DNA from: Haloarcula hispanica ATCC 33960
GTDB taxonomy: Archaea; Halobacteriota; Halobacteria; Halobacteriales; Haloarculaceae
Direction of reading: 5' to 3'
Length of the DNA stretch: 64,000 bases
Assembly (NCBI RefSeq): GCF_000223905.1
Contig: NC_015944.1
Location: 248,001 to 312,000, forward strand
Position numbers and translations under genes: made by a program. Every line of letters begins with the position of its first letter. The first letter of the stretch is position 1. Shown here in pieces: positions 15,006 through 45,634 of the stretch. Below the pieces are notes generated by a model that was not told the DNA's origin, did not search any database, and saw only the letters and a list, made by a program, of their open reading frames with translations.

Positions 15006-15131
15006 GGTCACGTCTCTGTACGAAGCGGAAATAAAGCCCAGTCTCTCTCCGCCTGTTACGGTTGGTTGCCATCTACACAAAGTGGAACACGTACGGCCCG
15101 GACCACACCTCAACTGCGGAGCGACTGCTCA

Positions 15132-15209
15132 TACTGCCGGCTGTAACTATTTCAAGAGATTCGCCACCCCGAAGTGGCGAGATTCTTCACAGACGTACAG
15201 CCGGCAGTA
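15132..15209. mobile_element. 78-bp palindromic MITE-like element, copy 1
   Basis: The element has perfect 14-bp terminal inverted repeats (TACTGCCGGCTGTA and its reverse complement) around an internal hairpin TCGCCAC-N6-GTGGCGA. It is flanked by the direct repeat TCA at 15129-15131 and 15210-15212. A second copy at 45448-45525 has the same length and differs at only four positions, but is flanked by TGA/TGA. Flanks that match within a copy and differ between copies are the signature of a 3-bp target duplication. The right TCA is the stop codon of the minus-strand CPBP gene. No transposase is in the window. Confidence 0.75.
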
Positions 15210-16061
15210 TCAGTCCCCGGTCGAGGCAGGGTTGTTCCGCCGTGACCAGATCAGCGGTGTCCCGCCGGATTCGACCACCCGAACAGTCAGGTAGACAAGC
15301 GAGACGATGGCGGCATACTCGATCACACTCGCTACCAGATGTAGCTCGGTCGGGATATGCACCGATACGATTACCGGCGGCTGATTCATCGATGCATGGA
15401 ACAGGGCGACGAGCCAGAGGTTGCCCGTCAGTGCGTATACGCTCCCGTAAGCGAGTCCCATGAGCGTCAGTCCGAGGAGTCTGGCTGCCAGCGCGGAACC
15501 GACGCCGTGCCCCGATGCGAGAAACCACCGCGGGAGATGAAACAGAGCAAATAGGACTGCGACAAGGCCGATACCAGCCAGCACCGCACGCCGAGTCGCC
15601 CCGCCGGCCAGCCTCGTGAATTTCTCCTGCAGGTACGTGCGAAAGAGGAGTTCTTCCGGGATCGCAGTGAACAGAAGCGAACTGAAAAGCGCCGCGAGAT
15701 ACAGCAGCGGGTGGGCAGCGGTTCTCGACAGCGAGGCGTCGAACCCGGAGATCCCACCCACCGCGAGGGCGACCGCAACAAGGTTGTACAGTCCCCAGAA
15801 CGCGATGACCACCCCGATCACGGGTATCAGTGTGCGAACAGGCGGGAGCAGAGAGCGCGGTGAGACGGTCTCAATTCTGAGCGCACCAACGGTGAGTGCG
15901 ACGAGGAAGACACCCCAGAGCATTCCCAAGACGGGCGGCGGCGATGCGCCGGGGGAGATGATCACCAGTCCGGAGAGGACGACAATTACCAGGAGGTACG
16001 CTACAACGGGAACCAACGGCCCGCTGCTGAATCTCGGCAGGCCAATATCAGGGCACAACAT
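15210..16061 (-). CDS. CPBP-family intramembrane metalloprotease
   Basis: A multi-pass membrane protein of 283 aa from ATG 16061 (MLCPDIGLPRFSSG). It has the CPBP/Abi signature: EELLFRTYLQEKF (EExxxR, about residue 133 onward), FALFHLPRW (FxxxH) and LVALFHASMN near the end. Bacterial relatives act in prenyl-protein-like processing or bacteriocin immunity; the substrate here is unknown. An upstream TTG start (16160) would add 33 basic residues and looks less likely, although a TATA-like GGTTTTAAA sits just beyond it. The stop codon coincides with the target duplication of the MITE-like element. Confidence 0.85.
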   Translation of the reverse strand: MLCPDIGLPRFSSGPLVPVVAYLLVIVVLSGLVIISPGASPPPVLGMLWGVFLVALTVGALRIETVSPRSLLPPVRTLIPVIGVVIAFWGLYNLVAVALAVGGISGFDASLSRTAAHPLLYLAALFSSLLFTAIPEELLFRTYLQEKFTRLAGGATRRAVLAGIGLVAVLFALFHLPRWFLASGHGVGSALAARLLGLTLMGLAYGSVYALTGNLWLVALFHASMNQPPVIVSVHIPTELHLVASVIEYAAIVSLVYLTVRVVESGGTPLIWSRRNNPASTGD

Positions 16062-16622
16062 CCAGTCGGAATCCGATGGCCGACCCAAAATTATCTTCCA
16101 TCTCGCAGTCCGGTGCAAATCCGTCGACGACGAGTACCAAGGTGTGTGAATCGGCCACAACCCACAGCTCTCGACGTTTAAAACCAGTTTTTAGTCTCTG
16201 GTAGCTTTAGTATGCTCCCGACCGACGGGGCAAACGCCGGCGACCGCCTGAGACGGTTCCCGGCTGCCAGCGCCCTCCCCGTATGCCGCCGGTTTCCACG
16301 AATCGGAATCCATCCCAGTCCGGGTGTCCACACGGCAACGGGCACACCCCGCCCTCCCCGTTGTCGACTGCTCAATTAACAGTGCGTTGGTACTACAGTT
16401 GAGACCCACACCACAGACCGAAAGTAACCATGAAACGACGTGTATGCCGGTTATACTGTTGCTATGTGAATGTACGTGCGTCGGTTTTCACAGGCGACGT
16501 GTTCTGCGATATGTATCACCGAGCAGCCGGACATCTCGGTACGGCACTCGATTCCCGGGCAGTGTTCGCTGAGAGACTGGCTCCCCACAGACCGACGGGC
16601 GTATCGCGGCAGGTGGTCAGCA
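16062..16622. other. gene-free stretch between divergent CPBP and subtilase genes
   Basis: I see no convincing gene in these 561 bases; short frames have basic, unhaloarchaeal composition. At 16180-16191 there is an AAAAC-CA-GTTTT inverted repeat resembling the better palindrome at 17919-17938. The stretch probably holds the promoters of both flanking genes. Confidence 0.5.
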
Positions 16623-44622: not shown

Positions 44623-45447
44623 ATGGCAGACTTCGGATTACAGGTGCGGATGCTCGTCGTCGGTGCGATTCTGTTCGCGTTCTACGTTTTCGCCGGCACG
44701 GCACTGTCGGTGCTGTTGGGCCTGCCGCTCGTCCCGGTGCTCCTCGTCGGAATCCTCGTGGTGCCGGCGATCCAGTACAAACTCGGGAAGTGGCTGGCAC
44801 TCCGTGGCGCGGAGGATATGCCGGACGACCAGCGGTTCGGCTACGTCCACCAGATGGTCCGGCGGCTCTGCAGAGATATGAATATCGAGGAGCCCCGGCT
44901 GATGGTGATGGACATGGGCGTGCCCAACGCCTTCGCGGTCGGACGGAAAGGTGCGGGTGTCGTCGTCGTGTCGAGCGAACTGATGCAACTCCTCGACGAC
45001 GACGAACTGGAGGGCGTGATCGCACACGAACTGGCCCACATCAAGAACCGGGACGTCATCACGATGGTCGTCGGCCAGTCTATCGGGATGCTCGTCGGCT
45101 ACGTCGCCTACTTCGCGGTACTGTTCGGCGGCGAGCGAAACGTTGGCTCCTGGATCATGGCGATGATCGCCTCCTCGCTCGCGAACGCGCTGGTCATGGT
45201 GTTCGTGCTGGCTATCTCACGGTATCGGGAGTACGTCGCCGACGCGGACGCGCGCCGCGCCATCGGCACCGGCGAGCCGCTGGCCCGTGCGCTCGAAAAA
45301 ATCTCACGCGGTGCTGAAGGACGCGAATCGAAAGTCGAGGACAGCATGAACGCCCTCTGTATCTTCAACGCCGACAAGGGGCTGTTCGAGAAACTGTTCT
45401 CGACCCATCCCCCGACTGAGAAGCGCATTCAGCGGCTCCGGTCCTGA
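44623..45447 (+). CDS. htpX: membrane metalloprotease HtpX, M48 family
   Basis: A 274-aa membrane protease for quality control of membrane proteins. Two N-terminal TMs (VGAILFAFYVFAGTALSVLLG region), the zinc motif HELAHIKNRD near residue 136, two more TMs, and the third ligand Glu in SRYREYVADADA. The C-terminus STHPPTEKRIQRLRS is the normal family end. TATA-like GTTTATACGG lies about 22-30 nt upstream, so the mRNA is leaderless. Its stop TGA is duplicated by the MITE-like element directly behind it. Confidence 0.95.
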   Translation: MADFGLQVRMLVVGAILFAFYVFAGTALSVLLGLPLVPVLLVGILVVPAIQYKLGKWLALRGAEDMPDDQRFGYVHQMVRRLCRDMNIEEPRLMVMDMGVPNAFAVGRKGAGVVVVSSELMQLLDDDELEGVIAHELAHIKNRDVITMVVGQSIGMLVGYVAYFAVLFGGERNVGSWIMAMIASSLANALVMVFVLAISRYREYVADADARRAIGTGEPLARALEKISRGAEGRESKVEDSMNALCIFNADKGLFEKLFSTHPPTEKRIQRLRS

Positions 45448-45525
45448 TACTGCCGGCTGTAACTATTTCAAGGTATTTGCCACCCCGAGGTGGCGAGATT
45501 CTTCACAGACGTACAGCCGGCAGTA
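45448..45525. mobile_element. 78-bp palindromic MITE-like element, copy 2
   Basis: Same length and same 14-bp terminal inverted repeats as the copy at 15132-15209, with four base differences. The internal hairpin here is GCCACC-CCGA-GGTGGC. The flanks are TGA at 45445-45447 (the htpX stop codon) and TGA at 45526-45528, a 3-bp target duplication. The element directly follows the htpX reading frame, so it may also act as a 3'-end hairpin for that mRNA. Confidence 0.75.
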
Positions 45526-45634
45526 TGAATCGGGAGGCGGACTGAACCGATTGGCACGGCTGTATCGCAGCCGACGCTCTCGTACAACTCTCTGGTAACT
45601 GGCCGCTTATCCGCGTCGAGCCGGAAGTATCGCT

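Follow-up and report, generated by a model that had tools for sequence, protein, structure and literature searches.

A probable non-autonomous mobile element family of haloarchaea with TNA target duplications, represented by two 78-bp copies in Haloarcula hispanica

Two 78-bp palindromes at the ends of protease genes

The window, by which we mean an entire 64,000-bp stretch of DNA, is part of the 405,816-bp replicon in the Haloarcula hispanica genome G000 (2,995,271 + 488,918 + 405,816 bp) and carries two closely similar palindromes. The original prediction described them as MITE-like elements with a 3-bp TNA duplication, mobilised in trans by an IS5-type transposase of the IS1031 group. Copy 1 occupies positions 15132..15209 and copy 2 positions 45448..45525; the element proper is 78 bp in each, the coordinates first given having included one TNA per side. 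In copy 1, the repeat search located the left 14-bp terminal inverted repeat TACTGCCGGCTGTA at 15132..15145 (plus strand) and the right one, TACAGCCGGCAGTA, at 15196..15209 (minus strand), and folding placed an inner imperfect hairpin with a GCCACC..GGTGGC core at 15154..15187. The corresponding repeats of copy 2 were found by the same search at 45448..45461 (plus strand) and 45512..45525 (minus strand). The inner pairs 33/46 and 34/45 showed compensatory changes family-wide, with covariation beyond that of shuffled sequences, which can reflect either selection on the palindrome or palindrome correction.

Each copy stands between identical trinucleotides, TCA at 15129..15131 and 15210..15212 for copy 1 and TGA at 45445..45447 and 45526..45528 for copy 2. 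Read on the minus strand, the right TCA of copy 1 is the TGA stop codon of a gene for a CPBP/Rce1-like membrane protease (15210..16160, minus strand; PF02517, E 5e-16), and the left TGA of copy 2 is the stop codon, on the plus strand, of an M48 (HtpX-type) protease gene (44623..45447, plus strand; PF01435, E 3e-37, residues 70-273 of 274). The equal lengths, the perfect inverted ends and both pairs of flanks had been predicted and are all present in the sequence; the four predicted substitutions between the copies were also found, at element positions 26, 27, 31 and 42, and the identity is 74/78 rather than the 76 of 78 given originally. The 14-mer end with up to three mismatches was matched 19 times in the window, compared with 3.5 matches expected and a maximum of 11 in 100 shuffles, thus excluding chance. 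The palindromes folded far better than shuffled sequences (z about -6 to -10), and no Rfam match was obtained in the window. In Har. hispanica N601, the plasmid record (405,815 bp) contained the same copy at 100% identity.

Empty sites, host range and recent bursts

At the copy 1 site, the 78-bp element was missing from six related genomes, in which the flanks were joined directly with a single TNA remaining; in the empty sites of the Haloarcula genomes G027, G019 and G031, the matches to the left and right flanks overlapped by exactly 3 bp, TCA. At the copy 2 site, nine related genomes lacked the element but had the same TGA stop codon in the protease gene, and the left and right matches in G003 likewise overlapped by exactly 3 bp. 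Both sites were occupied in the nearest relative, G001. Insertion at further sites was repeated: genome G000 holds about 20 copies with 74-100% identity, most of them with matching TNA flanks, TAA and TTA included, and matches were present in 28/32 Haloarcula genomes. Flanks were identical in 63 of 83 elements of a class sample, 62 of these being TNA (28 TGA, 27 TCA, 4 TTA and 3 TAA), and the middle base was the same in 62 of the 64 pairs with TNA on both sides. In a second set, which partly overlaps the class sample and in which mismatched ends were permitted, identical TNA flanks were found in 123/157 elements. About one-quarter of copies had no identical flanks, which we attribute to decay or recombination. 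The flank repeats are direct and not inverted, ruling out an extended palindrome.

The family thus combines terminal inverted repeats, target duplication, insertion polymorphism and non-coding, multicopy sequences, all of them features of MITEs. The search for empty sites yielded exact single-TNA alleles for both window copies, and that for the 14-bp ends with TNA flanks yielded many copies in the same genome and in its relatives; along with the lack of coding capacity, these results support the part of the prediction that the palindromes are MITEs which duplicate a 3-bp TNA and are mobilised in trans. We therefore consider the element to be a non-autonomous MITE family of haloarchaea, with a probability of roughly 0.88. 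Archaeal MITEs are on record from Sulfolobus, Halobacterium and Haloquadratum (review PMC10969869). Like MITEs, the 78-bp family is short, non-coding and multicopy, with inverted ends, a target duplication and no transposase of its own. Unlike them, it has no parent element among our findings, occurs almost only at 78 and 108 bp over highly divergent interiors, is concentrated at stop codons and is confined, among the matches listed, to haloarchaea and archaeal MAGs. No description of the family was found in the literature searched, outside which lay most subscription papers and ISfinder, so an earlier description is possible; a literature search with the end sequence returned no haloarchaeal paper.

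When the two ends were required at a spacing of 69-129 bp, the pattern matched 45/391 Halobacteria genomes and 17/86 genera, and the reversed control pattern gave 0 matches in all 391. The same pattern matched at least 120 stretches in a scan of 84,980 genomes, and among the 80 matches listed, every title was that of a haloarchaeon or an archaeal MAG. These results define a mobile element family across many haloarchaeal genera. Recent bursts were evident in two genomes. Natribaculum breve (Natrialbaceae) carries 13 copies of 78 bp on one 637-kb plasmid, near-identical within two subtypes, with variant ends TACT[GA][CT]CGGACGTA and TNA duplications in 13/13; the one-contig genome G032 carries 41 exact-ended copies. 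Both offer a concrete route to the missing transposase. Phage records gave no match to the element, and the 44 single matches in viral contigs were taken as chance. The highest load counted, 254 end matches, was in G061, a genome with a match to the Halomicrobium sp. LC1Hm plasmid NZ_CP044130; this load suggests a long burst history in the genus.

Insertions at stop codons and the search for a transposase

The target neighbourhood shows a preference for C before and G after the TNA (C-TSA-G). With flanking genes called by a simple home-made gene finder, the duplicated TNA coincided precisely with a flanking gene's stop codon in 27/62 elements of the class sample and 54/123 of the second set, the stop-codon share of copies being 40-44%, both window copies included. 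For the class sample, 7.4% would be expected from all non-coding TNA and 16.6% with target-motif weighting (p = 6e-7). Strict stop-codon targeting was rejected, there being no excess over motif-weighted TNA located 30 bp or less from gene ends. When identity to the closest sampled copy was used as a proxy for age, with loci from the same genome not fully independent of one another, the stop-codon share from the youngest to the oldest copies was 25, 31, 46 and 54%, and it differed (Fisher p = 9e-4) between copies whose closest sampled copy was at least 97% identical and those for which this identity lay below 97%. Because the share rises with copy age and 0/13 of the fresh Natribaculum copies are at a stop codon, the enrichment looks like mainly a matter of survival after insertion rather than of strict targeting. 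Insertion at the TNA of a TGA or TAA stop would recreate the stop codon through the duplication and leave the gene intact, so the copy would be kept; the persistence of such harmless insertions would explain both the share and its rise. The age gradient at stop codons provides a clean natural example of selection filtering insertions in compact genomes.

The position of the copies directly 3' of stop codons, the growth of this share with age, the strong hairpin and the covarying inner pairs are also what a structured RNA, terminator or 3'-UTR hairpin family under selection would display without any mobility. We regard such a family as highly improbable, however, given the empty sites, the direct TNA repeats and the near-identical copies at unrelated sites; in addition, the stem has no T-run after it and no Rfam match, and the hairpins of stop-codon copies were neither better paired nor more stable than those of intergenic copies. 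It is possible that some copies have been co-opted as an RNA hairpin; co-option as a 3' RNA hairpin is unsupported, since the stop-codon hairpins are no better than the intergenic ones.

The transposase was sought through the ends and through protein profiles. A full-length element with these ends was not found with the end pattern after MITE interiors were excluded, even beside fresh copies, and the long-pattern matches that were fetched turned out to be either further short variants or solitary decayed ends, with no transposase nearby. The entire 637-kb Natribaculum plasmid likewise yielded no long partner, and the end matches in G032 consisted of short copies, ends that had decayed and isolated matches with one mismatch. 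One candidate partner in G032, L366:1558-3048 (1,491 bp, perfect ends, TCA/TCA), was rejected as a nested IS: an IS4/ISH8-type element that encodes a 437-aa DDE transposase (PF01609) and has ends of its own had inserted inside a 78-bp copy, with a duplication of 10 bp, CTTTACGAAC. The profiles PF13340 and PF13586, which we take to model IS1031-group transposases, detected proteins in 0/18 and 0/8 carrier genomes, respectively, and in the control genomes both were positive. None of the PF01609 loci examined in eight genomes had ends matching the 78-bp element; where two copies could be compared, the repeated PF01609 elements were ISH1-like, with GAGGGTGTCATAGAA-type ends and duplications of 8-9 bp.

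The original prediction was right that TNA is the form of duplication reported for the IS1031 group of the IS5 family (PMC12016507), and this shared 3-bp habit is the point in favour of a MITE derived from an IS1031-group IS5-type element. The predicted mover does not agree with the other results: the end TACTGYCGGCTGTA is unlike the IS1031-group end GAACCTGTCTAGTATCT in the one example compared (PMC12016507), both profiles are missing from the carriers searched, the comparable PF01609 elements have other ends and longer duplications, and the full-length IS with the same ends that was expected did not appear. Derivation from the IS1031 group is thus unlikely. The mover may belong to another transposase family, have few end bases in common with the element, be encoded on the Natribaculum chromosome or have been lost in the meantime. 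The Small Mobile Repeats (SMRs) of Haloquadratum walsbyi are, by description, similar in size and form: SMR-A measures about 110 bp and HqIRS41 80 bp, both have terminal inverted repeats and occur in many copies, and no related transposon is reported (PMC3119063), just as the present elements measure 108 and 78 bp and have no partner. MITEs of Haloquadratum have also been reported to move although the genome lacks a functional transposase (PMC3119063). However, no target duplication is reported for SMRs and SMR-A is reported to target IS605/PATE palindromes (PMC3119063), whereas the element duplicates TNA and lies at gene ends, and the Haloquadratum plasmid PL47 had no match to it; that the two are of the same kind, with a common moving process, may be entertained but is doubtful.

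The fresh bursts without a full-length partner, in G032 and on the full Natribaculum plasmid, could also be produced by a stand-alone transposase kept by the host without a surrounding copy of these ends, as RAYT is for REP. The element and REPs are alike in being intergenic palindromes possibly dependent on a separate enzyme; they differ in that REPs span 20-40 bp and carry a GTAG/CGTC tag (PMC2817692, PMC3733652), whereas the element is 78/108 bp with a TNA duplication. Such an enzyme would be rather unlikely, since a partner with fewer common end bases, located on the Natribaculum chromosome or lost, would appear identical and the transposase profile searches spanned three Pfam models. For the non-autonomous MITE family that we prefer, the following course of events can be proposed. 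A putative transposase, probably of the DDE type to judge from the short staggered duplication, would recognise both ends of about 26 bp, make cuts staggered by 3 bp at TNA, C-TSA-G being preferred, and insert the element there, and subsequent repair would duplicate the TNA. The enzyme would act in trans, its own ends being different or elsewhere.

Lengths and internal anatomy

Among the 83 sampled elements, 60 were 70-79 bp long (exactly 78 bp in 46), 21 were 102-109 bp and two were 128 bp, and no element was found at 80-101 or 110-127 bp, lengths that the pattern permitted. The second set, with mismatched ends permitted, added single elements at 81, 93, 113 and 162 bp. The 108-bp class fell into eight interior clusters with a between-cluster identity of 35%, compared with 29% for shuffled sequence, and its ends and subterminal bases were those of the 78-bp class, TACTGYCGGCTGTAAnTnngTgAAga, the family-wide conserved end reaching about 26 bp. 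At position 6, the switch between C and T was concerted at both ends, for which the two explanations given for the inner pairs are equally available. An ordinary MITE model gives no reason to expect the near-fixed lengths of 78 and 108 bp. Their conservation may reflect a constraint imposed by the transposition complex, or just two old lineages in which indels are infrequent. Because the lengths are fixed while the interiors diverge, a length rule imposed by the complex can be tested. Combined with a stand-alone transposase without these ends, such a rule would let only 78/108-bp elements be moved, a fixed end spacing or helical phase being needed; we consider this combination improbable.

Several variants depart from the two main classes. 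The 128-bp form resembles a 78-bp element whose loop is extended by 50 bp, and in L190, L181 and L198 (G096), which represent this variant, the apparent 50-bp insert has a hairpin of its own (ACCGGTAGCC..GGCTACC). A 162-bp variant in L153, L158 and L163 (G028) has the same ends and another long inner palindrome (GGGTCGACAGAA). L194:1809-1886 and one L422 element represent subfamilies in which the ends, TACTGGTGGCTRTA, are altered concordantly on both sides, and their lengths are again 78 and 108 bp. A 42-bp minimal derivative, L211:2081-2122 (G119), has its ends nearly back to back and no matching flanks.
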